Assembly (NCBI RefSeq): GCF_001598915.1
Contig: NZ_BDAP01000002.1
Coordinates: forward strand, 806,001-870,000
Source of the DNA: Williamsia muralis NBRC 105860
GTDB taxonomy: Bacteria > Actinomycetota > Actinomycetes > Mycobacteriales > Mycobacteriaceae
Direction of reading: 5' to 3'
DNA length: 64,000 nt
Translations under genes and position numbers: made by a program
Shown: positions 13,534 to 32,068 of the stretch, in pieces
Position numbering within the stretch: position 1 is the stretch's first letter
How the letters are laid out: each line of letters starts with the position of its first letter
The notes under the pieces: generated by a model
The model's input: only the letters and a program-made list of their open reading frames with translations
Databases searched by the model: none
Told to the model about the DNA's origin: nothing

Positions 13534-16056
13534 TCACGATGAGGTGGCGCTCTGGGCTCCCCCTTGATTTGTTGTCGGGCCGTATCCCGCAGCTCTGAGC
13601 ATCGACAACATCTCCGACCGGGACCCGGCGCCGAGACGACGCCGAATCCTCGCCACGTGATGCTCGACGGTCTTGCCCGAGATGAACAGGCGGGCACCGA
13701 TTTCGCGGTACGTCAGCCCGAGCAGCAGGTTCCGGGCCACCTCGGCCTCGCGTTCGGTCAGCGGGCCGGCGGCCGGGTGTGCGGAATCGACATGCGTTGC
13801 GGTTGCCGCGACCGCTGGTGCGCCGACGAGTCGGGCGACCTGCAGCAATGAGGTGGCCGCCTGGGTGTCGTCGACCCGGAGTGCGGCCTCGCCGGCGAGT
13901 CGAGCCGCGTCCCAAGGCAATCCGGCCTGCTCGAGCGCCGACGCGGCCTTCTTCACCTCGGCCACATCGGGTTGTCCTTGCAGCACCCGCAGCCATGCCC
14001 GGCCTGCGTCGGCAAGGGCCGCACCGAACGGTTCGCCTGCGGCGGCCTGACCGAGCTGACGTGCATAGGGGACCAGGGCCGAGGGATCGTCCGCCAGGAT
14101 GGCGGCCTGCACGCCGTACCAACTCCACGACATCGACCACGCCGGCGGCGAGCCCAGAGCCGCGAGCAAACGGTCGGCGGCCATCACCAGGTGGGCGAGT
14201 CGCGCTGTGTCCTGCAAGCGGACCGCCGCGAGCCACAACTCGCCGAGTGGGTGCAATGCGAACAGGTCCACCTCCATCTCGGCCACCGCGGGCACGGCGT
14301 CGCGCCATGCGGCGACCAGGGCACCCATGTCGCCGCGACGTCGGGCTATCGCCACGGCAAGGGCATGGGCCACCAGCTCGTCCCGCAGGTTCTGGGGCGT
14401 GACCTCTCCGAGGATGTCCGCGGCGGTGCTCAGGTCGCCGCCGACCATCGCCGTCCATCCGAGGAGCAGTTGTTCGCGTGGGGTCTGATCGCAATCGCGC
14501 GACAGTGCGGCCTTCGCGCCGGCGAGGTCGCCACTGTGCAGACAGAGCAGCGCCGCGACGGCAGCGGCGGACTCTGGTTCGGCCCGGCGGTGCTGCGCGG
14601 AGAGGGACACCGCCCGCAGGATCGGTCCGAGGGCCGCAGCCGGCGACGACGTCAACGACGCAAGCAGGCCGGAGCTGAGCAGGGTTCCGCGGGCGTGATC
14701 GGTGGTCGGAGGCGCGGCGCCTGCGGTTGCCGAGAACTCCTCGGCCCCCGGACGATCCCCGGTCGCGAGCAGGGTTAGCACGCCGATCGTGGCGTCCGGT
14801 CCGGCGGCCTCTGGCCCCAGCCACCGGTAGAGGTCGGCCGACCGCGAATACGTTCCACGCCGTGCCGCGACCGCCGCGCCGATCCGGACGGCGTCACGGC
14901 GATCGGACGGTGAATCCGCGGCGAGGATGGTGTCGGCCAATCGGGTGGCGGTGTCGAGGTCGCCGGCGAGGGTCGCGGCGTCGGCCAACGGAACCCGGAC
15001 GACACCTGGGTCGGCGCCGGCCGTGAGCGCTGCGTGCCAGAGGTCGGCCGCCTCGGCCGGGGGAGCAGTGCGGGCCGCCGACAGGAGAAGATCCGCGAGA
15101 CGGCCGTCGACGACGCCCGAGCGGGCGGCGGCCAGGGCTCCGTCGATGGTCAGGGCCCCACGGTCGAGCAGCGCGTCCACCAGCGAGCGATGGGTGGACG
15201 CGATCTGGTGCTCGCCCCGCACCGCTCGCAGAACCGGGAGAGCGGCGGGAAGGAACTCGTCGGTGCCGGTGAGGAAACCGGAACCCCTTGCCCGATCAAG
15301 GGCTTCGATGGCTGCGGTGGGGTCGAGACCCAGGGTGTCGGCGATGGTGTGCGGATCGGGCGACGGTTGCAGGGCCGCCACGGTCAGTACGTCGTGAGTG
15401 GTGGGATCAAGCGCGCGCAGCCGTTCGTGCTGCCACTTCGCGATCGCCTCCCGGGCGGCCCGTTCGTCGGCGGCGGGGTCGGCTCGCAGGACGTCGAGGG
15501 CGGTGTCGATGGCTGCGCGGTTCCCGCCGGCAATTCGGCGGATGACGTCAGCCACGGGTGCGGACACAGTTCCGCCTGAACGGGCGATGATCGCGGGCGT
15601 GGGTAGTGGGCCCAGCTTGATGTCGGTGCCGAGGGCGGAGAACGTTCGCTGCACCTGTCGGATGTTGTTGTCGGACAGGCGCGGTTCGGCGGCGGCGATC
15701 ACCGTGAGGTCGCCGCGGTCGGCCAGGTCGGTGAGGCGGCTCAGGCTGCCGGCTTCCCAGTGGTGCACGTCGTCGACGATGACTGCGCAGCCGGGCCGGG
15801 TGGCCTCATGCTCTGGGATCGTCGTGAAAACCTGTGTGCCGGAACGGTTCAGAAGGCGACGGCAATGCTGCAACAGGTCCGATTTACCGCTCCCGGCGAC
15901 GCCGGTGACAAATGCGAGTACCGGACCGCCGGCGTGTACGGCGGACAGCAATGCTTGTGCGGCAGGCATTCCGGTGAACGCGGTGGCTCCGGGGAGGCGG
16001 TTCACCGGACTGCGGCCGACTGCGACATCACCCGCCGATTCCACCGAGGAGTCCAC
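13534..16056 (-). CDS. iniR: IniR-like LuxR-family ATPase regulator
   Basis: About 840 aa. A STAND/AAA-type ATPase domain opens the protein (Walker A GVAGSGKS, Walker B AVIVDDVHHW). A long helical alpha-solenoid region follows, then a C-terminal LuxR helix-turn-helix (LTEREAEVARNLLLGLTYRE ... SGKTVEHHVARIRRRLG). Size, architecture and position next to iniBAC match Rv0339c (IniR), the known activator of iniBAC in mycobacteria. The frame stays open to 16398, but that extension is the Pro-rich shadow of the neighbouring gene. I place the start at GTG 16056, with GTG 16044 as alternative; both overlap the 3' end of the Hsp70-like gene by under 30 bp, which implies translational coupling. Confidence 0.85.
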   Translation of the reverse strand: MDSSVESAGDVAVGRSPVNRLPGATAFTGMPAAQALLSAVHAGGPVLAFVTGVAGSGKSDLLQHCRRLLNRSGTQVFTTIPEHEATRPGCAVIVDDVHHWEAGSLSRLTDLADRGDLTVIAAAEPRLSDNNIRQVQRTFSALGTDIKLGPLPTPAIIARSGGTVSAPVADVIRRIAGGNRAAIDTALDVLRADPAADERAAREAIAKWQHERLRALDPTTHDVLTVAALQPSPDPHTIADTLGLDPTAAIEALDRARGSGFLTGTDEFLPAALPVLRAVRGEHQIASTHRSLVDALLDRGALTIDGALAAARSGVVDGRLADLLLSAARTAPPAEAADLWHAALTAGADPGVVRVPLADAATLAGDLDTATRLADTILAADSPSDRRDAVRIGAAVAARRGTYSRSADLYRWLGPEAAGPDATIGVLTLLATGDRPGAEEFSATAGAAPPTTDHARGTLLSSGLLASLTSSPAAALGPILRAVSLSAQHRRAEPESAAAVAALLCLHSGDLAGAKAALSRDCDQTPREQLLLGWTAMVGGDLSTAADILGEVTPQNLRDELVAHALAVAIARRRGDMGALVAAWRDAVPAVAEMEVDLFALHPLGELWLAAVRLQDTARLAHLVMAADRLLAALGSPPAWSMSWSWYGVQAAILADDPSALVPYARQLGQAAAGEPFGAALADAGRAWLRVLQGQPDVAEVKKAASALEQAGLPWDAARLAGEAALRVDDTQAATSLLQVARLVGAPAVAATATHVDSAHPAAGPLTEREAEVARNLLLGLTYREIGARLFISGKTVEHHVARIRRRLGAGSRSEMLSMLRAAGYGPTTNQGGAQSATSS

Positions 16057-17737
16057 CAACTGCCGCGCCCGTGCCGTCGAGGACTTGGCCCGGCACACCG
16101 AGCAGACCGCCACCGGGGTTGGGGGCCGGCGCAGGCGCGGGAGCCGGAGCCGGTGCGGGAGCCGGTGCGGGGGCAGGAGCGGGAGCGGGTGCCGGAGCAG
16201 GTGCGGGGGCAGGCGCCGGCGCCGGGGCTCCTCCACCGGGTGCCGGTGCGGGAGCCGGCGCACCGTTCTGCGGAGCGGTCGGGGCACCCGGCGCGGCGGG
16301 GGCGGGGGCAGCCGTTCCGCCTCTGGGTGCCACCGTTGTGGGCCGTCCGTCGGCGCCGGTGGTGACCGTGCCCGGGGTCCTGCTGTCGGTTCCGCCACTC
16401 GTGTCGGTCGAGGACCCGGCGGGCGAGCCGTCGGGGGCAGTCGAGGAAGCGGTCGGTGAACTCGTCACCGACGACTCTGCGGCGGCAGGCTTGGGCCCTT
16501 CGTCGTCGGTCAGGGCAGTGCCCACCGAGAGGCCTCCGGCGGTGAGGAGAGCGATCGCTGCGGCGACTCCGACCACGATGGCGGTGCGCTTGCCCCGCGA
16601 CATCGAGGCGGGCTCGACCTTGACGGTGCGGGGAGCCGGGGTGAGTGCGTGCGCGCCGGCGGGAACGACTTCATCCGAAGCCGATGCATGCGCCGGCACG
16701 ACCGCGACCGACGCCGCCGCGGCCGCCTTCGCCGCGGTGTGGGCGATGAGCGCGGCCCCGGTGGCGGTGGTGATCGCCGGGTCGTTGTTGACCGCGACCG
16801 GGATACGCAGCATCGACGACGCCAATTCACTGACAAGAGGGGTGGCCGAACCGCCGCCGGTGAGCAGGATCGTGGAGACCGCGCCCAGCTCGATGTCGGC
16901 GAGCTGTAGGGCCTCGATCACCAGGGCCATCGAACTCGCCAGGGGTGCCCGCAGCAGGTCTTCGAGCTCGGACCGGACGAGCCTGGCCTCGGTGCGGATC
17001 CCCGGAAGATCGATGGAGACAACGGTTTCGGTGTCCGAGGACAACGCCTCGCGGGCCGCCGCGCAGCGAACCCGGAGTTCGGCCAGGCCCTCCATCGTCG
17101 CCGCATCGAACGGGTCGATCGCGTCCGTGGCGCCCACCGATTCGAGGACATGGCCGAGAACGAGATGGTCGAACTGGGCGCCGCTGATCTCTTCGGACTT
17201 CAGAGGGCGGCCGATGACCACCGGGTCGGCGCCGGTGCGCACCACCGCCACATCGAGTGATGAACCACCGAGGTCGTACACCACGGTGACGCCGTCGAGC
17301 TGACCCTTGTGTTCGGCGAGCGCGGCAACCGCGGCGATCGCCTCGGGAACCACGGTCACCTCGGGCATGTCCTGCCGGGCCGCGGCCGCGCGCAGGGCCT
17401 CGACGGTGTAGTCCTGCCATTCGTTCGGGCAGGCGAGCACGATCGCGTCGGCATCCCAGGCGCCGGCGTCGGCGGCGAGAGCGGCCATCGCAGCGGCGTA
17501 GAGGTCCTCACCGGTGTACTGGCGACCGTCGTCGGTCACCAGGGCAACAGGATCACCCACCCGCTCGGTGAAACCGCCGACCCGGTACGGCCCCGGCCGG
17601 TCGACGAGTTCGGGCGAGGCGTCGGGCGCCAACTCCAGAATCGGGCCGCGCACGACAGCAGCGTCGAGGCCATCGTCGGTACCGGGGACTGCAACACATG
17701 TGGTGCTGCCGATCTTCAAACCGAGCGATGTGGTCAT
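16028..17737 (-). CDS. Membrane-anchored Hsp70-like ATPase-fold protein with Pro/Ala tail
   Basis: 569 aa. Residues 1-370 look like a DnaK nucleotide-binding domain: LGLKIGSTTCVAV (phosphate 1), VVYDLGGSSLDVAVV (phosphate 2) and LLTGGGSATPLVSEL (adenosine). There is no substrate-binding domain. Instead a membrane helix (about 385-411, RTAIVVGVAAAIALL) is followed by a 158-residue Ser/Thr then Ala-Pro-repeat tail, which would lie outside the cell or in the wall. Between the iniBAC promoter and iniR, it replaces Rv0340 of M. tuberculosis. It probably shares a divergent control region with iniB. It could be an envelope-stress sensor or a wall-spanning chaperone-like protein; neither is shown. 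Confidence 0.8.
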   Translation of the reverse strand: MTTSLGLKIGSTTCVAVPGTDDGLDAAVVRGPILELAPDASPELVDRPGPYRVGGFTERVGDPVALVTDDGRQYTGEDLYAAAMAALAADAGAWDADAIVLACPNEWQDYTVEALRAAAARQDMPEVTVVPEAIAAVAALAEHKGQLDGVTVVYDLGGSSLDVAVVRTGADPVVIGRPLKSEEISGAQFDHLVLGHVLESVGATDAIDPFDAATMEGLAELRVRCAAAREALSSDTETVVSIDLPGIRTEARLVRSELEDLLRAPLASSMALVIEALQLADIELGAVSTILLTGGGSATPLVSELASSMLRIPVAVNNDPAITTATGAALIAHTAAKAAAAASVAVVPAHASASDEVVPAGAHALTPAPRTVKVEPASMSRGKRTAIVVGVAAAIALLTAGGLSVGTALTDDEGPKPAAAESSVTSSPTASSTAPDGSPAGSSTDTSGGTDSRTPGTVTTGADGRPTTVAPRGGTAAPAPAAPGAPTAPQNGAPAPAPAPGGGAPAPAPAPAPAPAPAPAPAPAPAPAPAPAPAPAPAPNPGGGLLGVPGQVLDGTGAAVGGLLGGIGG

Positions 17738-17864
17738 GGTCTGCCGACTCCTCTGGTGCGCCTACGGCATCGACTCACCCTGTGATGCCCATCTCCCATG
17801 ATGTCGCCGCAGGTAGGGATGGTGTTACCGGTTCGGCGGGTGGTCGCGGATGTGCGGGGTCGAT

Positions 17865-17901
17865 CCCCTAGACCCCCTAATGCACCGGGGGGCTTCCCCT
17901 A
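17865..17901. repeat. Three CCCCTA direct repeats upstream of iniB
   Basis: CCCCTA begins at 17865, 17874 and 17896, in otherwise non-repetitive DNA, 36-107 bp upstream of the predicted iniB promoter elements. Reversed, each reads TAGGGG, reminiscent of the G-rich direct sites used by MalT/LuxR-type STAND activators. They are candidate binding sites for the IniR-like protein (inference). Confidence 0.45.
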
Positions 17902-17930
17902 ACGCCCCCATCAGCGACGAAGGGGGCGTT
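17901..17930. promoter_or_regulatory. 9-bp perfect inverted repeat upstream of iniB promoter
   Basis: AACGCCCCC (17901-17909) and GGGGGCGTT (17922-17930) form a perfect inverted repeat with a 12-bp spacer. It ends 6 bp before the predicted -35 hexamer, the usual place for an activator site. The left arm abuts the third CCCCTA repeat. A candidate operator for the IniR-like regulator. Confidence 0.5.
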
Positions 17931-17936
17931 GGCCCG

Positions 17937-17965
17937 TTGGGCCGGGTCCGCAGAACTCATAGCGT
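17937..17965 (+). promoter_or_regulatory. Predicted iniB promoter
   Basis: TTGGGC (17937-17942), a 17-bp spacer and TAGCGT (17960-17965) fit an actinobacterial housekeeping promoter with a TANNNT -10 box. Transcription would start near 17972 and give a leader of about 45 nt before the iniB ATG. The weak -35 box suits an activated promoter. Confidence 0.5.
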
Positions 17966-18017
17966 GGAGACAATCTCAGCGGACCCACCTGGATCCGCCC
18001 GGCAACAGGAGAACGCC

Positions 18018-21000
18018 ATGCCCAGCAACGCAGTACTCGATTTCATCCTCGGCCTCCTCCGCGACGAGAAAGCCGCCAACGCCTACTGCCTGAACCCGCA
18101 GGGTGCGCTGAACGCGGCCGGCCTGCCCGAGCTCTGCCACGCCGACATCGTCGCCGCGGCACCGATGGTTGCCGAATCCGGATTGTTCGCGGGTGGGTCG
18201 CGGTTGACCAACATCATCAATGCCGGCAATGGCGGTGGGGGCATCGGAGCGATCAACGTCGGCGCGATCGGTGGCGGCCTCGCCGTCGGCGGTCTGCAGC
18301 TCGGGAACATCGACTTCGGCGACGTGAACTTCGGTGACATCGACCTCGGTGGCTTCGAGTTCGGGAACATCGACTTCGGAAGCATCAACTTCGGGAACTC
18401 CGGCAACTTCGACTTCGGATCAATCGACCTGGGGAACATCGATCTCGGGCTCATCGATCTCGGAGGTCTCGACCTCGGCGGGATCAACTTCGGTGACCTG
18501 GACTTCGCCGGGCAGCTCGCGGTGGTGTTGGCGGCGGCACTCGCCGGTGGTGTGGCGGTCGGCGGCGAGATCGCTGCCGGTCTCGGCGTAGCCATCGGCG
18601 CCATCGTCGGCGGCATCCTGGACCTCAGCGGTGGCCTCGGAGCGATCTTCGACCTCGACGGCGTACTGGACATCGGCGCAACCGTGGCGGCTGTCCTCGG
18701 CGCCGGACTCGGCGTCACCGGTGAATTGACCGCAGGCCTGGCCGCAGCGATCAACGCCGCTCTGGCCGTGGTCGGTGGCCTCGACCTCGACGCAGCCCTC
18801 GGCTTCGCCACCGTCATCGGCGGCGCTCTCACCGCGGCGCTCGAACTCGGTGGCGCCCTTGCCGCCGGCATCGGTGCGGCCTTCGGTGCGGTGATCGGCG
18901 GCGCCATCGGACTCGGTGGTGCCCTCGCGGCGAACCTGGCCGCCGCACTCGCGGCCGGTCTCGATGCCGGACTGGCCCTGGGCGCGGCGCTCACCGGCGT
19001 CCTTGGCCTCGGTGCCGGTCTGGCCGCGCAGTTCGGTGCAGCCCTCGCCGGTGTCCTCGACGTCACCGGCGCACTCACCGGTGCACTCGCCGGACTGCTC
19101 GATGCGAACCTGCTGCTGGCCCTCGCCGGCGGCCTGACGGCGACCCTGCAGGGTGCACTGGCCGCGGCCCTGGCCGTCGGTGGTGACCTCGCCGGAGAGT
19201 TCGGATTGGCCCTCGGCGCACTGCTCGGTGCCGCAGTCGAACTGGCCGGTGTCCTCGATCTCGAGGCCCTCCTTGCCGTCGACGGTGCCCTGGCTGCTGC
19301 GCTGGCCGGTGTCCTCGGACTCGGCGGCGGTCTGACCGTCGTACTGGCCGGGGCTCTTGATGCCGCCCTCGGCGCATTCGGCGCGGTCGACCTCGCTGCG
19401 CTGCTCGCCGGCGGTGCCGAACTGGGCCTGGCGCTCGGAACCGCTCTGGCCGGTGTGCTCGCAGTCGGCGGGGAGATCGCTGCCGGACTGGGCCTTGCCC
19501 TCGGTGGTGTGCTCGGCGGACTTCTCGAAGCAGACTTCGGGGCCCAGCTGGCCGGTCTGCTGGCAGGTGGCCTGGACCTGGGACTCGCACTCGGCGCGAT
19601 CCTCGAAGGAGCTCTCGGACTGGGCGCTGTCGCAGACATCGCGGCCGGTTTCGGAGCTGCGCTGGCCGCGGCCTTCGGAGCCGGCGGCCTGCTGGCAGCC
19701 GACCTGACCGCACTGCTTGCCGGCGGACTCACCGCGACTCTGCAGGGCGCGCTGGTTGCCGTGCTGGCGGCCGGTGGTGACCTGGCAGGCGAGTTCGGTC
19801 TGGCGCTCGGTGGTGTCCTCGGTGCCGCGCTCGAACTGGCCGGCGCCGCAGATCTCGAAGCCCTCCTGGATGTCGACGGCGCACTGGCCGCGGCACTCGC
19901 CGGGGTGTTCGGACTCGGCGGCGGTCTCGCCGCCGGCCTGACCGGAGCGTTCGAAGCCGCCCTCGGCGCCTTCGGCGACCTCGACCTCGCCGCATTGCTC
20001 GCAGGCGGAGCCGACCTCGGTCTCGCCCTTGGCACCGCGCTGTCGGGAGTGCTGGCTGCCGGAGGCGAAGTCGCCGCCGGACTGGGTCTTGCCCTCGGCG
20101 GTGCAATCGGTGGATTGCTCGACGCCGACTTCGGCGCACAGCTCGCCGGGCTGCTGGCCGGCGGCCTCGACCTCGGGCTCGCGCTCGGCGCAATCGTGGG
20201 CGGCGCGCTCGGACTGGACGGAGCCGCGGAGATCGCCGGCGTCTTCGGTGGCGTGCTCGAAGCCGCACTCGCCGCAGGCGGCGTGATCGGGGCCGACCTC
20301 ACCGCACTGCTGGCAGGCGGCCTGGCCACCGAACTCGCGGCCGCACTCGCCGGGGTCCTGGCTGCCGGTGGCGAACTCGGTGCCGAGTTCGGAGGCGTTC
20401 TCGGCGCTGTGATCGGTGCGGTCGGCGACCTCGACGCCGGTCTGGGAGCCGAACTCGTTGCCGGTCTGACCGCGGCCCTGGGTCTCGATGCGGTCCTCGA
20501 CACCGATCTCGGTGCCGAGGTGGCCGCTGCGCTCGCCGCCGGTGGCGCACTGGCCGCCACCGTCGGAGCGACGCTGGGAGCAACGATCGGCGGAGCGCTC
20601 GAAGGCGCGCTGGCCGGTGAGCTCGCCGGACTGCTCGAAGGCGGCCTCGACCTCGGTGGCGCACTGGGTGTGGTCCTGGACGGCGCCCTCGACATCGACG
20701 GTGGTCTCGCCGGCGAGTTCGGCGCAGTCCTCGGTACCGCGCTCGGCGCAGCCGGCCTGGTCGCAGCCGACCTCGGCGGACTCGTGGAGACGGAGGTCGG
20801 TGCCGGGATCGGTACCGCGCTGGGTGCAGGCGGCGCGCTGGTCGGCGGAATCGACGGAGCCCTCGATGCCGGTGCGGCCGGTGGACTCGCCGCCGCTGCT
20901 GCCCTGGTCGGCGGCCTCGAAGCTGCCGGTGATGCAGGCATCGCCGGAGGACTCGGCGCCGGCGCCATCGTAGGCGGCGGTGTGGAGACCGCAGTGGGTG

Positions 21001-21581
21001 GAGTTGTCGCCGCAGGCGGCGGATTGATCGCTGATGCCGACACCTCGGCGAACGCGCTGCTGGGTGCGGCCACCGACATCGATGCAGGTCTTGTCGGCGC
21101 GGTCGGCGGTGCTGCGGGCGGTGACCTCGACGCAGGTGGCGCCATCGGCGGCGTGGTCGGCGGTGACGCCGCAGGCGGTCTGGGACTGGGCGGCGGCGTC
21201 GAGTCCGTACTGACGGGAGGGGCTACCGGTGAGCTCGAGAATGCTCTCGACGGCGTGGCCGGACTCGGCGGCGGGGTCGGTGCTCCTGCACCGCTGGATC
21301 TCACTGCGGACGCGGGTACCGGACCGGCCGAGGTGACCGGAGATGTGGTCGGCGGCGTGACCGGCGGAGTGGCCGACACCACCACCGGAGTGGTCGGAGG
21401 AAACGCGGGCGGCTGGTCGGACATCGACGCCGACAACGCATTCGGCACCGGTGACACCGGACTCACCGGGGCGCTCACCGGCGACAGCGGACTGACGGGC
21501 GGACTGCTCGGCGGAGCCGACGCCGACACCACCACCGACGGAGGCGGACAGGTCGACGCGGGCGGCGCCCTCGACGACTGA
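18018..21581 (+). CDS. iniB: Giant IniB-like Gly/Ala-rich acidic protein
   Basis: 1187 aa, more than twice M. tuberculosis IniB (479 aa). The first 60 residues match the IniB N-terminal domain (VLDFILGLLRDEKAANAYCL ... GLPELCHADIVAAAP). Next comes a region of five-residue repeats of the type (N/D)(F/L)G(N/D/S)I, about residues 95-160. The rest is Gly/Ala/Leu/Asp-rich, with a roughly 198-residue segment duplicated in tandem. After Arg62 I find no Lys, Arg or His at all, so the protein is extremely acidic. No signal peptide is evident. The ATG at 18018 has CAGGAGAA upstream; an upstream extension to 17850 runs through the promoter and is rejected. In mycobacteria the operon is induced by cell-wall inhibitors; IniB's molecular role is not settled. 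Confidence 0.87.
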   Translation: MPSNAVLDFILGLLRDEKAANAYCLNPQGALNAAGLPELCHADIVAAAPMVAESGLFAGGSRLTNIINAGNGGGGIGAINVGAIGGGLAVGGLQLGNIDFGDVNFGDIDLGGFEFGNIDFGSINFGNSGNFDFGSIDLGNIDLGLIDLGGLDLGGINFGDLDFAGQLAVVLAAALAGGVAVGGEIAAGLGVAIGAIVGGILDLSGGLGAIFDLDGVLDIGATVAAVLGAGLGVTGELTAGLAAAINAALAVVGGLDLDAALGFATVIGGALTAALELGGALAAGIGAAFGAVIGGAIGLGGALAANLAAALAAGLDAGLALGAALTGVLGLGAGLAAQFGAALAGVLDVTGALTGALAGLLDANLLLALAGGLTATLQGALAAALAVGGDLAGEFGLALGALLGAAVELAGVLDLEALLAVDGALAAALAGVLGLGGGLTVVLAGALDAALGAFGAVDLAALLAGGAELGLALGTALAGVLAVGGEIAAGLGLALGGVLGGLLEADFGAQLAGLLAGGLDLGLALGAILEGALGLGAVADIAAGFGAALAAAFGAGGLLAADLTALLAGGLTATLQGALVAVLAAGGDLAGEFGLALGGVLGAALELAGAADLEALLDVDGALAAALAGVFGLGGGLAAGLTGAFEAALGAFGDLDLAALLAGGADLGLALGTALSGVLAAGGEVAAGLGLALGGAIGGLLDADFGAQLAGLLAGGLDLGLALGAIVGGALGLDGAAEIAGVFGGVLEAALAAGGVIGADLTALLAGGLATELAAALAGVLAAGGELGAEFGGVLGAVIGAVGDLDAGLGAELVAGLTAALGLDAVLDTDLGAEVAAALAAGGALAATVGATLGATIGGALEGALAGELAGLLEGGLDLGGALGVVLDGALDIDGGLAGEFGAVLGTALGAAGLVAADLGGLVETEVGAGIGTALGAGGALVGGIDGALDAGAAGGLAAAAALVGGLEAAGDAGIAGGLGAGAIVGGGVETAVGGVVAAGGGLIADADTSANALLGAATDIDAGLVGAVGGAAGGDLDAGGAIGGVVGGDAAGGLGLGGGVESVLTGGATGELENALDGVAGLGGGVGAPAPLDLTADAGTGPAEVTGDVVGGVTGGVADTTTGVVGGNAGGWSDIDADNAFGTGDTGLTGALTGDSGLTGGLLGGADADTTTDGGGQVDAGGALDD
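19129..20317 (+). repeat. 594-bp tandem duplication inside iniB
   Basis: The coding segment beginning GGLTATLQGAL near 19129 recurs near 19723, and DLEALLAVDGALAAALAGV at 19257 recurs as DLEALLDVDGALAAALAGV at 19851, an offset of 594 bp (198 codons). A third, more divergent unit seems to follow from about 20318. Copies differ mainly at synonymous or conservative positions. Confidence 0.7.
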
Positions 21582-21640: not shown

Positions 21641-21678
21641 CATCGGTCCCGCACACGGTTACGTGTGCGGGACCGATG
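21641..21678 (+). terminator. Hairpin between iniB and iniA
   Basis: A perfect 17-bp stem (CATCGGTCCCGCACACG, 21641-21657, with its complement at 21662-21678) has a GTTA loop and is followed by TGGTTGTGTTCT. It lies between the iniB stop and the iniA start. The U-tract is imperfect, so it may act as a partial terminator or an mRNA-stabilising 3' end that makes iniB mRNA more abundant than iniAC. Confidence 0.65.
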
Positions 21679-21728
21679 TGGTTGTGTTCTCGGTAGACCC
21701 TTCATCATTTCGACGACCAGCAGACCGG

Positions 21729-23669
21729 ATGACCGATGAAAAGCGCCTCAGCATGAAGAGCATCGCCGGATCGTCGGCCGCGCCCGCCGACGGTGCACCC
21801 GAAGGCGCTCAGCCGGGCCGGCTGGGCGAGCTGTTGGGCCGGATGGGTCAGATCGCTGCCAAGTCCGGACGGCAGGACCTGGTCGACCGGCTCGAGGGAG
21901 CCCGCACTCGGGTCACCGATCCGCGCGTGCGGATCGTGGTGGTGGGGCCGCTCAAGCAGGGCAAGAGCCAGTTCGTCAACTCCCTGCTGAACGTCGAGGT
22001 GTGTTCGGTCGGCGACGACGAGACCACCGCCGTGCCCACGCTCGTGCAGAACGGGCAGCAGCCGTCCGCCGAACTGGTTCTCGCGCAACCGGGCAGTGAC
22101 CCTGTGCGCACCCCGTTGCCGATGGACCAGCTCACCTCCGTGACCCCCGACCACCCGCTGGCCGAGGGACGCGACATCACCCGGCTCGAGGTCAACGTCC
22201 CCAGCCCGCTGCTGGCCGACGGCCTGGTGCTTGTCGACACCCCCGGCGTCGGCGGACACGGGAACCCGCATGCCGCAAGCACTCTCGGGCTGATCCCATC
22301 CGCAGACGCGGTTTTTGTGGTGTCCGATGCAAGCCAAGAGTTCACCGAGCCCGAGATCTCTTTTCTTCGCCAGGTGATGACGCTGTGCCCGACCGTCGCC
22401 TGTCTGATCACCAAAACCGACCTGTATCCCCACTGGCGTCAGATCGTCGACGCCGACCGGGCACACCTCCAGCGCGAGGGGCTCGACGTCCAGCTGCTGC
22501 CGGTGTCGTCCATGCTGCGTTCGCACGCACTGCGTCTCGGCGACGACTCGCTCAATGTCGAGGCCGGGTTCGTGGAGGTGTACCGATTCCTCCGGGAGCG
22601 GGTGGTCGCCCGGGCCGACCACTCGACTCGCGAATCAGTGGCCCTGGACCTGCGTTCGGTGTCCGAGCACCTGGCCCTCACCCTGGGCAGTGAACTCGCG
22701 GCGATGCGCAGTCCCGAGACTGCCGCTGCCGCGGTCGCTGAACTCACCCGAGCCAAAACTGCCGCCGAGGACATGCAGAAGCGGTCGTCGCTGTGGCAGC
22801 AGACCCTCGCCGACGGCATCACCGACCTCGCCGCCGACATCGACCACGACCTGCGAGACCGGTTGCGCGCCATCACCCGCGAGGCCGAACAGGCTGTCGA
22901 CGAGGGTGATCCGGGCAAGGACTGGCCGCAGCTCACCGAATGGATCGAGGACCAGATCGCGGTGGCCGTCGGCGACAACTTCGTGTGGGCGCACGAGCGG
23001 GCGGTGTGGCTCGCCGAACGGGTGGCCGAGCACTTCGCCGACACCGCCGAGGCCAACCTGCCGCGCCTCGACATCACCGACATCGACGGCATCTTCGATC
23101 CGGTCACCGAACTCTCCGACCTCGAGTCCGGAAAGGTCGGCATCACCCAGAAGGTGCTGATCGGTATGCGGGGCTCCTACGGCGGAGTGCTGATGTTCGG
23201 CCTCATCGGCACCTTTGCCGGGCTCGCGCTGATCAACCCGATCTCGGTCGGTGCCGGACTCCTGTTGGGCACCAAGGCATACAAGGACGACAAAGAGGCG
23301 CGCACCAACGAACGGCGGAACAAGGCCAAGGCTTCCATCCGCAAGTTCACCGACGACGTCAGCTTCCAGGTCGGCAAGGAGTCCAAGGATCGGCTCCGCC
23401 ACATCCAGCGGACGTTGCGTGACCATTTCACCCAGGTCGCCGAGCAGTCGGCACGGTCGATAGGTGACTCGCTGCAGGCGGCCCAAGAGGCCGCGGCGAT
23501 GGCCGGCTCCGAACAGCGAACCCGGACCGCCGAACTCGAGCAGGAACTCAAAGCTGTTGCGGCGCTGCGAAAGGTGGCGTTGCAGCTGGATCCGGCCATC
23601 GAGGCCACGGGGGGCGCTGCGGCAACCCCGGCGGTCACATCGGCATCGGCGGATCGGGCCGTGGAGTGA
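21729..23669 (+). CDS. iniA: IniA-like dynamin-family GTPase
   Basis: 646 aa, close to M. tuberculosis IniA (640 aa). The GTPase domain holds VVGPLKQGKSQFVNSLL (G1), DTPGVGG (G3) and ITKTD (G4). A helical stalk and a hydrophobic hairpin (GGVLMFGLIGTFAGLALI, then GAGLLLG) lie near residues 480-520 and probably bind membrane. A coiled-coil C-terminal part follows. IniA in mycobacteria is a bacterial dynamin-like protein able to remodel membranes, which is known for that protein. I chose the ATG at 21729; ATG 21753 is an alternative, and the more upstream 21663 lies inside the preceding hairpin. It overlaps iniC by 4 bp. Confidence 0.9.
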   Translation: MTDEKRLSMKSIAGSSAAPADGAPEGAQPGRLGELLGRMGQIAAKSGRQDLVDRLEGARTRVTDPRVRIVVVGPLKQGKSQFVNSLLNVEVCSVGDDETTAVPTLVQNGQQPSAELVLAQPGSDPVRTPLPMDQLTSVTPDHPLAEGRDITRLEVNVPSPLLADGLVLVDTPGVGGHGNPHAASTLGLIPSADAVFVVSDASQEFTEPEISFLRQVMTLCPTVACLITKTDLYPHWRQIVDADRAHLQREGLDVQLLPVSSMLRSHALRLGDDSLNVEAGFVEVYRFLRERVVARADHSTRESVALDLRSVSEHLALTLGSELAAMRSPETAAAAVAELTRAKTAAEDMQKRSSLWQQTLADGITDLAADIDHDLRDRLRAITREAEQAVDEGDPGKDWPQLTEWIEDQIAVAVGDNFVWAHERAVWLAERVAEHFADTAEANLPRLDITDIDGIFDPVTELSDLESGKVGITQKVLIGMRGSYGGVLMFGLIGTFAGLALINPISVGAGLLLGTKAYKDDKEARTNERRNKAKASIRKFTDDVSFQVGKESKDRLRHIQRTLRDHFTQVAEQSARSIGDSLQAAQEAAAMAGSEQRTRTAELEQELKAVAALRKVALQLDPAIEATGGAAATPAVTSASADRAVE

Positions 23670-25132
23670 GTACCCTCGACCGCGCCCGTGAGCTGCTCGA
23701 CGCCGCCGAGAAGGTGTGCGGACGTGACCGCTGGGCGGCCGCCCGGCTGGCCGACTGTTCCGACCGACTCGACGAACCGCTGCGCATCGCCATCGCGGGG
23801 TCGTTGAAGGCGGGCAAGTCGACCCTGCTCAACGCGATGGTCGGCCAGGACATCGCACCGACCGACGCCACCGAGTGCACCCGCGTGGTCACCTGGTACC
23901 GGCGCGGAGTCAATCCCAAGGTCACGGCCCGGTACGACGGCGAGCGATCGGCCGGGATCCCCGTGTTGCGCCGAAATGGCCACCTCACCTTCGACTTCGG
24001 CGATCTGACCGCCGAACGCGTCGACCGCCTCGACGTCGAGTGGCCGGCGAGGGCGTTGCGGTCGATGACCATCATCGACACCCCGGGTACGGCGTCGCTG
24101 TCGCGGGACGTGTCGGCACTGACCGTCGACATGCTCACCCCCGAGGACGGCGAGTCGGGCGCGGACGCGGTGGTCTATCTACTGCGCACGCTCACCAGTA
24201 CCGACACCGCCTTCCTCAGCAGGATCGGGGAGTCCATCGGCGGTGAGTCCGGGCCACTGGGCGTGGTGGGTGTGGTGTCGCGGGCCGACGAGGTCGGCGC
24301 GGGCCGGGTGGACGCGATGATGTCGGCCAAACAGGTTGCGGCGCGGTTCGCCAACGAGCTCGAACGCACCGGCCTCTGTCAGGCTGTGGTGCCGGTCGCG
24401 GGCCTGCTGGCTCTCGGCGCGCGCACCCTGCGGCAGGTCGAGTACTCGGCGTTCGTTGCGTTGGCTGCCGTTGCGCCCGAAGAACTCTCGCTGGCGATGC
24501 TCTCGGCCGACCGATTCGTCCGGCCCGAGACCCCGCTGCCCGTCGAGCCTGGTCTGCGTGCGGAGTTGCTCGACCGCTTCGGTATGTACGGCATCCGGAT
24601 GGCCGTCACCCTGATCCGGCTCGGAACCCCCGACTCACCGACTCTGGCAACCGAACTGGTCGACCGCAGCGGACTCACCGAACTCCGGCAGATCATCGAT
24701 GTGCAGTTCGGGCAGCGCGCCGATCAGCTCAAGACCCACACCGCCCTGATTGCCCTGGAACGCATACTTGCGCACTATGATTCGGCCGAGACCGAAGAGC
24801 TGCGCAAGGCGACGGCGCGGATGCTGGCCGATGTTCACGGCTTCGCCGAGCTGCGGTTGCTCGGCAAACTGCGCACCGGGGGAATCCAGTTGCCGCCCCA
24901 GGACCGCGACGACCTGCAACGCATCATCGGTGGCTCGGGCATCGAACCCTGGGCCCGGCTCGGTATCGCACCCGACGACAGCGTCGATCTGCATCGCAAG
25001 GCCGCGATGGAAGCGGTGCGGCGCTGGCGCACCCGTGCCGCCCATCCGCTGTTCGACCGGCCGACAGCGGTGGCGTGCACGGTCGCCGCCCGCAGCGCCG
25101 AAGGTATTCTCGCCGAGCTCGATTCGCAGTGA
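23666..25132 (+). CDS. iniC: IniC-like dynamin-family GTPase
   Basis: 488 aa (IniC of M. tuberculosis is 493 aa). GTPase motifs: IAGSLKAGKSTLLNAM (G1), TIIDTPGTASLS (G3) and VVSRADEVG (G4 region). It lacks the long hydrophobic segment of IniA, so it may act as a partner of IniA on the membrane. The GTG start overlaps the iniA stop as GTGA, which couples translation. The gene is the third in the iniBAC operon and is followed 7 bp later by a small unknown gene. Confidence 0.9.
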   Translation: MSTLDRARELLDAAEKVCGRDRWAAARLADCSDRLDEPLRIAIAGSLKAGKSTLLNAMVGQDIAPTDATECTRVVTWYRRGVNPKVTARYDGERSAGIPVLRRNGHLTFDFGDLTAERVDRLDVEWPARALRSMTIIDTPGTASLSRDVSALTVDMLTPEDGESGADAVVYLLRTLTSTDTAFLSRIGESIGGESGPLGVVGVVSRADEVGAGRVDAMMSAKQVAARFANELERTGLCQAVVPVAGLLALGARTLRQVEYSAFVALAAVAPEELSLAMLSADRFVRPETPLPVEPGLRAELLDRFGMYGIRMAVTLIRLGTPDSPTLATELVDRSGLTELRQIIDVQFGQRADQLKTHTALIALERILAHYDSAETEELRKATARMLADVHGFAELRLLGKLRTGGIQLPPQDRDDLQRIIGGSGIEPWARLGIAPDDSVDLHRKAAMEAVRRWRTRAAHPLFDRPTAVACTVAARSAEGILAELDSQ

Positions 25133-26400: not shown

Positions 26401-26421
26401 CTTGAGTCAGATCGACTCAAC
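26401..26421. promoter_or_regulatory. HAIR operator 1 (HspR site) upstream of dnaK
   Basis: CTTGAGT-N7-ACTCAAC matches the HspR-associated inverted repeat CTTGAGT-N7-ACTCAAG at 13 of 14 defined bases. HspR, encoded at the end of this same operon, binds such sites as a repressor with DnaK as co-repressor in Streptomyces and mycobacteria. Confidence 0.9.
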
Positions 26422-26463: not shown

Positions 26464-26477
26464 CACCTCTCGAGAGA

Positions 26478-26498: not shown

Positions 26499-26531
26499 CC
26501 GGTTTGACGTGAATGGCATCGACCGGTAACA

Positions 26532-26552
26532 GTTGAGTCGATCGCGCTGAGG
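26532..26552. promoter_or_regulatory. Degenerate HAIR operator 3 upstream of dnaK
   Basis: GTTGAGT-N7-GCTGAGG keeps one good half-site and the 7-bp spacer (10 of 14 positions). It may be a weak third HspR site. Confidence 0.4.
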
Positions 26553-26643
26553 TTTCAGACCCCAAGAAGAGGTCGTCACAGACCTCAAACGTGAACAAAT
26601 TGTGCGCGCACGGTTGCGCCGCACTGCTTATAGGAGGCAACAA

Positions 26644-28488
26644 ATGGCTCGTGCTGTTGGAATCGACCTGGGCACCACCAACTCGGTGGTCTCTGTGCTC
26701 GAAGGTGGCGAACCCACCGTTATCGCCAACGCCGAGGGCGCCCGCACCACCCCGTCGGTGGTTGCATTCGCCCGCAACGGCGAGGTTCTGGTCGGACAGC
26801 CGGCCAAGAACCAGGCAGTCACCAACGTCGACCGCACCATCCGTTCGGTCAAGCGCCACATGGGCGAGGACTGGACCACGTCCATCGACGACAAGAACTA
26901 CACGCCACAGGAGATCAGCGCTCGCACGCTGATGAAGCTCAAGCGCGACGCCGAGAGCTACCTGGGCGACGAGGTCGTCGACGCGGTCATCACCGTCCCT
27001 GCGTACTTCAACGACGCCCAGCGTCAGGCCACCAAGGAAGCCGGCCAGATCGCCGGCCTCAACGTGCTCCGTATCGTCAACGAGCCCACCGCCGCCGCAT
27101 TGGCGTACGGCCTGGACAAGGGCGAGAAGGAACAGACCATCCTGGTGTTCGACCTCGGTGGCGGTACGTTCGACGTCTCGCTGCTGGAGATCGGCGACGG
27201 TGTCGTCGAGGTCCGGGCGACCTCCGGTGACAACCACCTCGGTGGTGACGACTGGGATCAGCGTGTCGTCGACTGGCTCGTCGACAAGTTCAAGGCGCAG
27301 AACGGCATCGACCTGACCAAGGACAAGATGGCCCTGCAGCGTCTGCGTGAGGCCGCCGAGAAGGCGAAGATCGAACTGTCCTCGGGACAGAGCACCTCGA
27401 TCAACCTGCCCTACATCACGGTCGACGCGGACAAGAACCCGCTGTTCCTCGACGAGCAGCTCACCCGCAGTGAGTTCCAGAAGATCACCAACGACCTGCT
27501 CGAGCGCACCCGTGCGCCGTTCCAGGCCGTGGTCAAGGACGCCGGCATCGCCGTCGGCGACATCGACCACGTCGTGCTCGTCGGTGGCTCCACCCGTATG
27601 CCCGCCGTCAGCGACCTGGTGCGTGAACTGACCGGAGGCCGCGAGCCCAACAAGGGTGTCAACCCGGACGAGGTCGTGGCCGTCGGTGCCGCACTGCAGG
27701 CCGGTGTGCTCCGCGGTGAGGTCAAGGACGTCCTGCTCCTCGACGTCACCCCGCTCTCGCTCGGTATCGAGACCAAGGGCGGCGTGATGCACAAGCTGAT
27801 CGAGCGCAACACCACCATCCCGACCAAGCGGTCGGAGACCTACACCACCGCAGAGGACAACCAGCCGTCGGTGCAGATCCAGGTGTATCAGGGTGAGCGT
27901 GAGATCGCCTCGCACAACAAGCTGCTCGGTTCGTTCGAGCTGGCCGGTATCGCGCCTGCACCGCAGGGTGTCCCGCAGATCGAGGTGACCTTCGACATCG
28001 ACGCCAACGGCATCGTGCATGTCACCGCCAAGGACAAGGGCACCGGCAAGGAGAACACCATCCGGATCCAGGACGGCTCCGGCCTGTCCAAGGACGAGAT
28101 CGATCGGATGATCAAGGACGCCGAAGCGCACGCCGACGAAGACCGGAAGCGTCGCGAAGAGGCCGAGACCCGCAACCAGGCGGAGTCGCTGGTCAACCAG
28201 ACCGAGAAGTTCCTCAAGGAGTCCGACGACAAGGTCCCGGCCGAGCTCAAGACCAAGGTCGAAGGCTCGATCGAGGGCGTGCGTGAGGCTCTCAAGGGCA
28301 GCGACCTCGGCGCCGTGAAGTCGGCTGTCGAGAAGCTGACCACCGATTCCCAGGAGCTCGGTCAGGCGATCTACGCCAACGCCGCTGCCGAAGGTGACGG
28401 AGCTGCCGCTGCCGGCGGGGCCGACGATGTCGTCGACGCCGAGGTCGTGGACGAAGGTGCTGACAGCAACGCCGGAGAGACCAAGTGA
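26644..28488 (+). CDS. dnaK: Hsp70 chaperone DnaK
   Basis: 614 aa, normal for actinobacterial DnaK. Nucleotide-binding domain: [48 protein letters not shown] and [15 protein letters not shown]. The substrate-binding domain begins near residue 360 ([14 protein letters not shown]) and ends in a helical lid and an Asp/Gly-rich tail. ATP-driven folding and disaggregation of cytosolic proteins; also the co-repressor of HspR. The ATG at 26644 has a perfect AGGAGG; the 14-codon upstream extension is in the leader. First gene of the dnaK-grpE-dnaJ-hspR operon. Confidence 0.99.
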
Positions 28489-29099
28489 CCGGTCCGGAAT
28501 CCGATCCGGTAACCGCCACGGAGGAAGCTCCTCCGGCCACGGATGCCGCGGATGCGCCCGTAGACGGCGCAGACGCGGCACCCGCTCCGGAATCGGATGA
28601 CACGGTGGATGCGGCCATCGACGACGCAGTCGCCGATGTTGCGGGCTCGGACAAGGAGTCCGAGTTGCTCGCCGACCTGCAGCGTGTGCACGCGGAGTAC
28701 GCCAACTATCGGCGTCGCGCCGAGCGCGAGAAGGTCAGCGCGCAGCAGTACGGCAAGGGTGATCTCATCAAGTCGCTGCTGCCCGTCCTCGACGACCTGG
28801 ACCGCGCACGTGCGCACGGTGACCTCGAAGCGGGCCCGCTGCGTGCGGTGGCCGATAAGATCACCGAGACACTCACCGCGGCCGGTCTCGCCTCGTTCGG
28901 GGCCGAGGGCGACGAGTTCGACCCGGCGCTGCACGAAGCGGTGCAACATGAAGGTCAGGGATCGAACCCGGTGATCGGAACGGTGTACCGGCAAGGTTTC
29001 CGGCTCGGCGACCGGGTACTGCGCACCGCCATGGTCGTGGTGGTCGACGGTCCGGAACCGGCAGTACAGACCCCTGCGGGTCAGACCAACGAAGAATGA
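28485..29099 (+). CDS. grpE: Nucleotide exchange factor GrpE
   Basis: 204 aa. An acidic, disordered N-terminal 60 residues precede the long GrpE helix ([20 protein letters not shown]) and the beta-domain ([36 protein letters not shown]). It releases ADP from DnaK. The GTG start overlaps the dnaK stop (GTGA), so translation is coupled. Confidence 0.97.
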
Positions 29100-29104
29100 G
29101 CATT

Positions 29105-29133
29105 CCGGCCCAGGCGCACCGCGCCTGGGCCGG
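29105..29133 (+). terminator. Hairpin between grpE and dnaJ
   Basis: A perfect 13-bp GC-rich stem (CCGGCCCAGGCGC, loop ACC, complement to 29133) begins 5 bp after the grpE stop. A CTTTTTG run follows 15 nt later, too far for a classical terminator. It may be an attenuator, an mRNA processing barrier, or a stabiliser that sets lower dnaJ expression. Confidence 0.6.
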
Positions 29134-29194
29134 GATCGCTACCAAGACTTTTTGCACACAACGAGATTTGAGAAAGAGAAGGAGGTGACGCCTG

Positions 29195-30379
29195 GTGGCT
29201 CCTCAACGTGAGTGGCTCGAACAGGACTTCTACAAAGCGCTGGGCGTTGCATCCGATGCGTCCGCCGACGACATCAAGCGGGCCTACCGCAAGCTGGCGC
29301 GCGAACTGCATCCCGATGCGAACCCGAACGACCCGGCTGCCGAAGAACGCTTCAAGCTGGTTTCCGAGGCGCACAGCGTGCTGTCCGACCCGGCCAAGCG
29401 CAAAGAGTACGACGACACCCGGCGGATGTTCGCCGGCGCGCGCGGTCGCGGTGGTGCTGCCGGATTCCCTGGCGGCTACGGCACCACGGCCGGAGGTCAG
29501 GAGTTCAACCTCAACGATCTGTTCGGTGACGCGGCGGGCGGACCGGCCGGCGGCGCAGGCGGATTCAGCGACCTGTTCGGTGGTCTGTTCAACCGCACCG
29601 CCACCCCCCGTGGCACCCAGACGCGCAGCCGTCGCGGCAACGACCTGGAAACCGAGACCACGCTGACCTTCAAAGAGGCGGCGCTGGGTACCTCGAAGAC
29701 CATCACCATCACCAGTTCGGCGCCGTGCACGAATTGTCATGGCAGTGGCGCGAAGCCCGGCACCAGTCCGCGGGTGTGCCCCACCTGCAACGGCGCCGGC
29801 GTCGTCAGCCGCAATCAGGGCGCATTCGGATTCAGCGAACCGTGTTCGGACTGCCGCGGCACCGGATCCAAGATCGACGATCCGTGCCCGGTGTGTGAGG
29901 GCGACGGCGCCACGGTCCGTACCCGACCGATCACCGTGCGCATCCCGCCCGGTGTGTCCGACGGCGGCAGGATCCGGCTTGCCGGGCAGGGCGAAGCGGG
30001 CCTGCGCGGAGCACCGTCGGGAGACCTGTACGTCAGCGTCCACGTCTCACCCGACCGCACGTTCACCCGCAGCGGCGACGACGTGAAGGTGACCCTCCCG
30101 GTGACCTTCGCCGAACTGGTTCTCGGCACCACGGTGTCGGTACCGACACTCGACGGCAGCGTCGGGTTGAAGATCCCGCCGAACACCGTCGACGGACGCA
30201 CCCTGCGGGTTCGCGGCCGCGGTGTCGCCAAACGCGCAGGCGGCGCCGGCGATCTGTTGGTGACTGTGAAGGTTGCAGTGCCGCCGAAGCTCGACGACGC
30301 GGCCATCGAAGCTCTTGGCAAGTACGCCGCGGCAGAAAAGGCCAGCGGTTTCGACCCGCGTGCGAATTGGGGTAAGTGA
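29195..30379 (+). CDS. dnaJ: Chaperone DnaJ
   Basis: 394 aa. J domain with HPD at about 39-41, Gly/Phe-rich linker (residues about 85-135), four zinc-binding repeats ([32 protein letters not shown]) and the C-terminal substrate domains. This is the DnaJ1 type that belongs to the dnaK operon. It stimulates DnaK ATPase and delivers substrates. Start is a GTG at 29195 preceded by AAGGAGGTGA, an unusually strong site that may offset the upstream hairpin. The stop overlaps the hspR start. Confidence 0.98.
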
Positions 30380-30789
30380 TGAGCTCCCGCCGTGAAGAAC
30401 GTGAATCCGCCGATCAATCGGCGCGGATGTTCGTGATCTCGGTGGCCGCCGAACTGGCCGGCATGCACGCGCAGACACTGCGCACCTACGACCGCCTCGG
30501 GCTCGTCACCCCCCAGCGCGCGGCGGGTGGCGGACGGCGGTATTCCAGCCGCGACGTCGAACTGCTCCGCGAGGTGCAGCGACTGTCGCAGGACGAGGGT
30601 GTGAACCTTGCCGGCATCAAGCGCGTGATCGAGTTGACCAACCAGGTCGACGCGCTGCAGAGCCGGATCCGTGAACTGGAGGCAGAGGTCGCCGCCCATC
30701 GCGCGAGCAGTCGCGGCGAGCTCGTCCCGATGCCGCGAACCAGCGCGCTGGTCGTGTGGAAGCCGCGCCGCGAGCGCGGCGACAGATGA
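30376..30789 (+). CDS. hspR: HspR, MerR-type heat-shock repressor
   Basis: 137 aa. MerR helix-turn-helix: [20 protein letters not shown], then [21 protein letters not shown] coiled coil ([20 protein letters not shown]) follows. The C-terminal end is basic. It binds HAIR sites upstream of dnaK with DnaK as co-repressor. Start is GTG 30376 or ATG 30379; both overlap the dnaJ stop (GTGATG), so it is translationally coupled. The autoregulatory loop is established for the family, and three candidate HAIR sites are present upstream. Confidence 0.95.
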
Positions 30790-30871
30790 GCACGGTATCG
30801 GCAGGAGTCGATTCCGCCTCGCAATTCGTGAGTTTCGGTAACAGCGCCTTCGATGAGAGCGATACTCAGGT

Positions 30872-32068
30872 ATGAGCCAGGTACTCGGGATTTCGATCAC
30901 CGACCTGGAGATCGCCTCGGTGGTCGCCGATTCCGGCACCGGTGAGGTATTGGCCCGCAACTTCGTGGAGTTGACGGGCCCTTCTCCTGAGATCGCCTTC
31001 GACGCGATCTATCAGTTGGTCGAGTCAGCACCCATCACGCCATCGGCGATCACCATCGCGTGCTCCGACAGCGGAATGCAGTTGGCGATCGACGACATCC
31101 TCGCCGCGAAGGTCGTGCCCGACTTCATCCTGCCCCCGAACCCGGCAGATTCCTCGGCCGGTCCGATCAAACCTGCGTGGTTCGCGCGCACGACCGTCGT
31201 CGGGACCCCACTCGCGTTCGCCGAGCTCGCGACCACTCAGTTCGGCTCACGCGGTGTTGTGGTGGTTGCCGACCTCGACACCACCGGGGCCCTGTTCACC
31301 GGCCAGTCCGTCGCACTCATCGACACCTCGGCCCGCACCGTCGTGGGGGCCAGTGCGGTGTCCGGATTCGGCGAACGGCTCCCGGTCACCGAGCCCGAGG
31401 GCGCGCAGACCCTCGCCGATGCGATCGCGGTCATCCCGAACCCCAGCAACGCCGTCCACGGAGTTGTGGTGGTGGGCCCGGGCGCGCAGGTTCCCGGCGT
31501 CGCGCCGTCGCTCGAATACGCCCTGCAACTACCCGTGCAACTGGTGGACGATCCTCAATACGCGGCAGCCAGCGGCGCGGCCATGGTCGCCGCCGCCGCG
31601 GTCGGGCACAGTCGCGACAACAACCGATGGGTGCTGCTCTCGGCGAGCGCCGGTGCCGCGCTGCTGCTGGCCGTCGGGGTGATCATCGCGGTCGTGATGA
31701 CCGGTGGCAGCAACAATCCCGAGACCGTGAGCGACGACAACTCCGTCACCGCCAAGTTCTCGAGCACCAGCACCACCACCCCTGTGACCACGTCGAAGGG
31801 GCTCTCGCGCATCTCGTCTCCGACGATCTCGGTGCCTGCCAGCAGCACTCGGACGATCCCGGCTCCGCCGCCGGCGCCGCCGACCACCATCACCCAGGCG
31901 CCGCCGCCGATCACGGTCACCCAGCCACCGCCGCCGGTGACAACTGATCCTCCGGAGACCACCGATCCTCCGGAAGAGACCACGACGACCAAGACGACGA
32001 CAACCTCCACGACAACCACTTCGGTCACCGACCCGAGTTTGCCGGCGGAAGAACTGCCGCAGCCCTAA
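30872..32068 (+). CDS. Degenerate Hsp70-fold membrane protein with Pro/Thr tail
   Basis: 398 aa. Residues 1-245 resemble a shortened actin/Hsp70 ATPase fold: an opening LGISITDLEIASVVADSGTG, a central VVVADLDTTGALFTG in place of the DLGGGT motif, and GPGAQVPGVAPSLEYALQLP then DDPQYAAASGAAMVA, the adenosine-site pattern. A single membrane helix (about 253-277) is followed by a 120-residue Thr/Pro-rich tail. Key phosphate motifs are eroded, so ATP hydrolysis is doubtful. It follows hspR by 82 bp on the same strand and ends 3 bp into the convergent flavohemoglobin gene. Its layout copies the Hsp70-like gene at 16.0-17.7 kb, although the sequences are clearly different. Confidence 0.7.
   Translation: MSQVLGISITDLEIASVVADSGTGEVLARNFVELTGPSPEIAFDAIYQLVESAPITPSAITIACSDSGMQLAIDDILAAKVVPDFILPPNPADSSAGPIKPAWFARTTVVGTPLAFAELATTQFGSRGVVVVADLDTTGALFTGQSVALIDTSARTVVGASAVSGFGERLPVTEPEGAQTLADAIAVIPNPSNAVHGVVVVGPGAQVPGVAPSLEYALQLPVQLVDDPQYAAASGAAMVAAAAVGHSRDNNRWVLLSASAGAALLLAVGVIIAVVMTGGSNNPETVSDDNSVTAKFSSTSTTTPVTTSKGLSRISSPTISVPASSTRTIPAPPPAPPTTITQAPPPITVTQPPPPVTTDPPETTDPPEETTTTKTTTTSTTTTSVTDPSLPAEELPQP

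Follow-up and report, generated by a model that had tools for sequence, protein, structure and literature searches.

Why should a gene for an Hsp70-like protein lie between iniR, which encodes the regulator of iniBAC, and iniBAC itself, a well-known drug-induced envelope-stress operon? The question arises from a stretch of 64,000 nucleotides (nt) of the Williamsia muralis NBRC 105860 genome (contig NZ_BDAP01000002.1, positions 806,001 to 870,000; hereafter the window, its genome being G000), in which the ini genes are followed by the dnaK heat-shock genes. An earlier note on this DNA had described two membrane-anchored Hsp70-fold proteins bracketing the block, of 569 and 398 amino acids (hereafter hsp70L and P1, respectively), and had read them as a pair that forms a trans-envelope stress-signalling system. 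Comparisons across the family and the order of the window separate the two. The hsp70L protein probably helps to control or carry out the envelope stress response, and we are evenly divided on whether it does so as the dedicated partner of IniR, a pseudo-Hsp70 co-regulator in the iniR-iniBAC circuit.

The place of hsp70L in the ini locus

In the window, the open reading frame (ORF) of hsp70L (16028..17737, minus strand) lies where the earlier note had placed it, between iniR and iniB, overlapping the former and diverging from the latter. The iniR gene (13534..16044, minus strand) encodes a STAND/LuxR-type regulator of iniBAC that scores 531 bits with NF038181, below the cut-off of 750; its start codon is uncertain, the GTG at 16044 being one of several candidates, and its frame overlaps the end of hsp70L. 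The iniB gene (18018..21581, plus strand) scores 64.6 bits with NF038175 (cut-off 40); its ORF opens at 17850, and the start at 18018 was deduced from the IniB N-terminal domain. Two dynamin-like genes follow on the plus strand, iniA (21663..23669; PF00350, 7.5e-17) and iniC (23666..25132; PF00350, 6.1e-11), named from the earlier note and gene order.

The arrangement recurs throughout the family of the window, which was surveyed in 201 genomes of 31 genera with IniR counted at E ≤ 1e-30. IniR is encoded by 106 of these genomes (19 genera), and in at least 93 of the 106 (17 genera) hsp70L lies directly upstream of iniR, that is, on the same strand and within 2.5 kb. Reading of individual loci added three genomes (G011, G098, and G065; iniR is split in G065), while in two others the gene is rearranged within the ini cluster, standing beside iniC (G085) or near it with one small ORF between (G031). 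The remaining eight IniR genomes end at contig breaks (G091, G064, G185, G175, G048, G132, G141, and G133); with these set aside, hsp70L is found in the ini locus of 98 of the 98 IniR genomes that can be judged. It is also present in L154. The coupling to iniR is tight: of 70 stretches examined, 59 had a measurable hsp70L-iniR junction, and in 54 of these a possible iniR start falls between -80 and +120 nt relative to the hsp70L stop, often at -4 to +10.

For the order, 200 genomes were sampled, and IniR was found in 60 of them, 42 outside the family of the window. Loci were fetched from 18 of these 42 and from two further genomes of g29, a genus called Mycobacterium-like on the grounds that its IniR and Rv0340-type proteins score above the curated cut-offs. 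Among the 18 outside loci, hsp70L adjoins iniR in 17 (7/7 in f15, 6/6 in f14, 3/3 in f16, and 1/1 in f3); the same 17 carry iniA/iniC, the IniB N-terminal domain was detected in 14, and f3 has its ini genes and iniR on one strand. Judged by this distribution, hsp70L predates the family of the window, and its restriction to that family is ruled out by the 17 loci. Of the two additional g29 loci, L206 is arranged as usual, and in L207 hsp70L stands at the iniC end. Second copies of hsp70L, downstream of iniR, occur in g29, and further copies were found in L087 (g21), L076 (g18, in tandem), and L091 (g15). The second copy of G052 (L153, approximately 6730-8000) contains internal stops or a frame break.

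The earlier note had regarded the system as not described. The available text of Boot 2017 (PMC5760070) mentions a dnaK-like gene beside iniR, the same locus as here, and names it only for M. smegmatis; it gives the gene no role, wider distribution, or operator motif. That sentence was the only prior mention of hsp70L found in the open-licence literature. The M. smegmatis gene would correspond to the second hsp70L copy of g29.

Domain layout and residue erosion of hsp70L

The HSP70 family of Pfam (PF00012) matches hsp70L with E 2.6e-22 (profile positions 95-374 of 599; alignment A2). The match covers residues 61-334, the nucleotide-binding part only, at 79.2 bits against a cut-off of 20.6. A profile of 27 relatives aligns with the genome's own DnaK over 338 columns (hhalign probability 99.3, E 3.6e-20). 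Unlike DnaK, hsp70L has neither a detectable substrate-binding domain nor the linker to it, the HSP70 match stopping at position 374 of 599; no substrate-binding domain was found in P1 either, so that the earlier note was right about both proteins in this respect.

A further difference from DnaK is what follows the nucleotide-binding domain. In a set of 30 loci, all from the family of the window (L056 runs off its contig), all 30 proteins continue with a single hydrophobic helix and a low-complexity tail, and in most a basic stretch comes before the helix; helix and tail are shared by the aligned f1 loci and f16. In the window the predicted transmembrane helix spans residues 387-405 (16523..16579, minus strand; hydropathy scan), with SRGKR just before it, and leads into an Ala-Pro tail, as the earlier note had reported. 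The tail is Gly-rich in many other loci and Thr-Pro in L089. Many hsp70L C-termini end in GVGGVVGG-type glycine repeats, which resemble IniB in composition. An AlphaFold2 model of the window sequence alone reached a predicted local distance difference test score (pLDDT) of 39.5, too poor for use.

The erosion of the domain is reflected by the positions corresponding to D8, K70, E171, D194, and T199 of DnaK, whose roles and numbering are assumed here. Among the 49 hsp70L rows aligned with DnaK, the equivalent of K70 is replaced in 48 and kept only in L162. D8 persists in f15, f16, f3, and half of f14, compared with 1 of 27 f1 rows and none of the four from g29. D194 persists in f1, f16, f3, and g29, replaced by Ala in 7/7 f15 rows, and lost in 6/6 f14 rows. 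A glycine pair in the C-terminal half is nearly invariant (49/49 and 48/49 rows), and an R-x-G-D motif occupies the K70 region in all 27 f1 rows and many others, though not in f16. The hsp70L protein thus appears to carry an Hsp70-derived nucleotide-binding domain that is probably inactive as an Hsp70, and the pattern of erosion suggests a protein that binds nucleotide but does not turn it over normally, a state at which several clades arrived separately.

The candidate IniR operator

In M. tuberculosis, IniR binds in front of iniBAC, as observed by chromatin immunoprecipitation (PMC5760070, available text). The gap between hsp70L and iniB, which was retrieved for 59 of 69 stretches, holds CCCCTAACG-type repeats that constitute a candidate IniR operator. 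In the window, a matrix scan places three CCCCTA repeats at 17862..17904 (plus strand), with 12-nt boxes starting at 17862, 17871, and 17893. The gaps contain direct repeats like ATCCCCTAACG, the commonest spacing being 18 nt (33 cases). Because these gaps also supplied the matrix that scored them, two of the counts are fitted: CCCCTA is present on the iniB strand of 58 of 59 gaps (at least twice in 47), and box pairs occur in 40 of 59, compared with none in 20 rounds of shuffling. The 7-mer TAGGGGA, on either strand, occurs in 55 gaps, with 2.6 expected.

Boxes of second copies and of the wider order are a fairer test of the operator than these fitted counts. Outside the gaps, 784 kb contain 15 box pairs at 12 places, of which eight precede iniB-type genes (that of L086 in a gap outside the set) and four precede second hsp70L copies. 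All four second copies that were read in g29 have a box pair of their own, even the broken copy in L153. In the order-wide loci together with the two further g29 loci, CCCCTA is present in 15 of 16 gaps tested, a count made without a shuffle control, and mostly as a single box in f15 and f16. The box pairs indirectly indicate that hsp70L belongs to the IniR regulon, whose regulator would bind these repeats.

A text search of the main text of PMC5760070 shows no IniR binding site, the word "motif" occurring only in its references, and no literature on a CCCCTA-type iniBAC operator was found among the matches listed for open-licence papers. Seven loci (L089, L152, L153, L154, L156, L159, and L171) contain two iniB-type genes (iniB* and iniB) in tandem or close together, with box pairs before both in most of them.

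The role of hsp70L and the identity of P1

In E. coli, the regulator MalT binds direct repeats and has MalK, MalY, and Aes as partners. IniR resembles MalT, which is held by the maltose uptake system (PMC5760070, available text), and a STAND regulator held by a membrane partner could serve as a model for hsp70L and IniR; the proposed partner differs from that of MalT in being an Hsp70 relative rather than a transporter ATPase, and the interaction is one that we infer. By this analogy, hsp70L would bind IniR in a nucleotide-dependent manner, at the membrane where anchored, and would keep the regulator inactive until envelope disturbance led to its release; more loosely worded, it might hold or prime IniR as the partners of MalT do. 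Once free, IniR would bind the CCCCTAACG repeats of the divergent promoter that both transcription units share, so that iniBAC and hsp70L-iniR would be induced jointly in a feedback. As far as the available text of PMC5760070 goes, signal sensing is probably periplasmic, the three named IniR domains include no membrane segment, and passage of trehalose through the inner membrane is probably not required, so that there is room for a membrane partner of IniR. The most specific version of this proposal, in which hsp70L, as a catalytically dead Hsp70, supplies the missing connection from the envelope to IniR by serving as membrane receptor or leash for the STAND regulator, can be put forward only tentatively.

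The position of the gene favors a co-regulator over an effector. A number of observations weigh against the co-regulator. In L159, L162, and L207 the gene stands at the iniC end and not beside iniR, which fits an effector equally well, and in L204 (f10, IniR present) no hsp70L was found within the 14 kb read. The hsp70L protein of L162 retains all of the catalytic residues tallied, and that of f16 retains D8, D194, and T199. Tethering is excluded as the general mechanism: no hydrophobic segment follows the domain in 7 of 7 f15 proteins, so the membrane anchor is not part of the conserved core of hsp70L, and the trans-envelope design of the earlier note cannot be central to it. The operator evidence is weakened not only by the fitted matrix and the uncontrolled order-wide count but also by the lack of box pairs before the extra copies in L087, L076, and L091 (0/3), by single boxes in the window that are no commoner than chance, and by a genome-wide search for the box pattern with two matches, both in the hsp70L-iniB gap, to which the reversed control gave 2 and 2. 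M. tuberculosis and M. marinum respond even though the dnaK-like gene is named only for M. smegmatis, so the role of hsp70L may not be universal, and overexpression of IniR alone induces iniBAC (PMC5760070, available text). Contact between hsp70L and IniR is itself what we infer rather than observe. HpoR is an iniBAC repressor in BCG (PMC13413693, available text), a neighboring fact and no test of hsp70L.

A possible, if doubtful, alternative is that hsp70L is an effector: made on IniR's order, it would join the dynamin-like IniA/IniC in their work at the membrane and touch the envelope with its outer tail. Copies rearranged to the iniC end and the second copies in g29 with their own box pairs (4/4) mean that an effector fits too. 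A neighboring fact in favor of an effector, though no test of it, concerns Rv0312/MSMEG_0692: this Pro/Thr-rich protein with a single helix, which is listed as binding ATP, is a partner of the envelope-growth protein FhaA (PMC11898655, available text). Against an effector, hsp70L is most often joined to the iniR operon rather than to iniBAC, and the f15 proteins possess neither helix nor tail.

It is improbable that hsp70L merely helps the large IniR protein to fold and senses nothing. Such a helper would suit the operon overlap and the Hsp70 ancestry, whereas the missing substrate-binding domain, the eroded catalytic residues, and the boxes of the g29 second copies speak against it.

Very improbable is the proposal of the earlier note, a paired trans-envelope signalling system of hsp70L and P1 joining ini and heat shock: some co-occurrence exists, with both P1 and IniR in 22 of 201 genomes (17 of the 22 from two genera) and P1 commoner with IniR (22/106) than without (5/95; Fisher p 0.0015, uncorrected for kinship), and the two proteins are distant cousins, whereas 84 genomes have IniR without P1, five have P1 without IniR (G006, G038, G104, G151, and G161), no IniR box pair was found upstream of P1 in any of 26 loci, P1 resembles DUF7159 more closely than hsp70L, and P1 lies away from hspR in g18 and g16. 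The link to envelope stress survives for hsp70L, through the iniR operon, the order-wide ini locus, and the predicted boxes; a single system made up of the pair is not supported. The layouts described for the two membrane proteins recur in 30 of 30 hsp70L and 26 P1 loci, and only the assignment of P1 to Hsp70 does not hold.

P1 (30872..32068, plus strand) starts 82 nt after hspR (30376..30789, plus strand; NF047375, 145.7 bits, cut-off 105), directly behind it as the earlier note had stated, and consists of a short domain, a transmembrane helix predicted from a hydrophobic segment (residues 258-276; 31643..31699, plus strand), and a Thr-Pro tail. At E < 1e-15 it was counted in 27 of the 201 genomes, all in g1, g7, g9, g16, and g18, with 54 genomes of weaker matches left out of the count. 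These relatives, 26 of which were aligned (L035 was dropped as partial), keep the short domain, the helix, and a Thr-rich tail, with Pro in most. A profile search of 150 genomes of the order matched G000 and G038 strongly and another 56 genomes weakly. Additional P1-like genes of more distant kinship occur in G040, G059, G076, and G119 (g1).

P1 as an eroded Hsp70 was rejected. PF00012 matches neither P1 nor its members, hhalign with DnaK gives a probability of 0.1, and only 62 C-terminal columns align with the hsp70L family (probability 94.9), compared with a full-length match of 206 columns to DUF7159 (PF23717; probability 98.1, E 1.3e-13). The sole Pfam match of P1 is to a C-terminal piece of MreB, below the cut-off, and phmmer against the PDB returned three matches (E 0.05 to 0.81), one of them MreB. 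With profile A1, the top 13 of 19 PDB matches (E ≤ 10; nine at E < 0.01) belong to the actin/sugar kinase/Hsp70 superfamily and span mostly 45-70 C-terminal residues. The P1 profile weakly matches 6 of 7 f15 hsp70L proteins (E 3e-9 to 4e-6), which makes P1 and hsp70L distant cousins. An AlphaFold2 model of P1 (rows of the window, L010, and L011) had a pLDDT of 36.6, again too poor for use. In the DUF7159 proteins L090:2552-4228 and L090:8514-9683, as in P1, the domain is followed by a hydrophobic segment. The two families differ in that PF23717 is not among the matches of the 26 P1 members at E up to 0.1, and in distribution, DUF7159 being over its cut-off only in g29 (14/201 genomes). The two DUF7159 genes of L090 share their stretch with an hsp70L paralogue, and some Mycobacterium-like genomes carry runs of several such genes (G124:C102, G069:C29, and G136:C180).

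The neighborhood of P1 was read in 15 loci besides the window (13 of 20 fetched stretches, L010, and L011). In all of them, as in the window (32065..33447, minus strand; Pfam, gene order), a convergent gene for a globin fused to a flavin adenine dinucleotide/nicotinamide adenine dinucleotide (FAD/NAD) reductase follows P1. In g1, g7, and g9, hspR precedes P1, with a gap of 2.2 kb in L080, and in g18 and g16 P1 lies beyond iniC. Its membership in the IniR regulon was rejected on the missing box pairs, and a scan around P1 found no promoter or terminator. P1 may be transcribed with the heat-shock operon dnaK-grpE-dnaJ-hspR, given a candidate site before its first gene dnaK (26644..28488, plus strand; ORF opening at 26602; NF001413, 972 bits, cut-off 648; own-genome HSP70 search). 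This candidate HspR site, an inverted repeat like HAIR (HspR-associated inverted repeat; 26401..26421, plus strand), has one mismatch to a consensus that we presume to be correct; at up to three mismatches the pattern matches twice in the window, with 1.1 expected by chance. P1 is a membrane protein of its own, DUF7159-like and associated with the hspR/globin neighborhood, and not the regular partner of hsp70L.

Two more HSP70 matches over the cut-off are present in the genome of the window (G000:C1:148036-148827 and G000:C6:134803-135129). L011 (NZ_JNYV01000013.1), titled Kitasatospora arboriphila NRRL B-24581, encodes proteins that are, where compared, 96-100% identical to those of the window locus, and looks mislabelled or contaminated.

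If hsp70L does serve as such a receptor or leash for IniR, the locus would represent an Hsp70 fold turned to signalling, an arrangement conserved in several families of the order, and some Mycobacterium-like genomes would have lost hsp70L from its position next to iniR. The available text of PMC5760070 leaves open how IniR learns of a signal placed in the periplasm; a conserved partner gene that overlaps iniR, together with a conserved candidate operator, makes this question directly testable.

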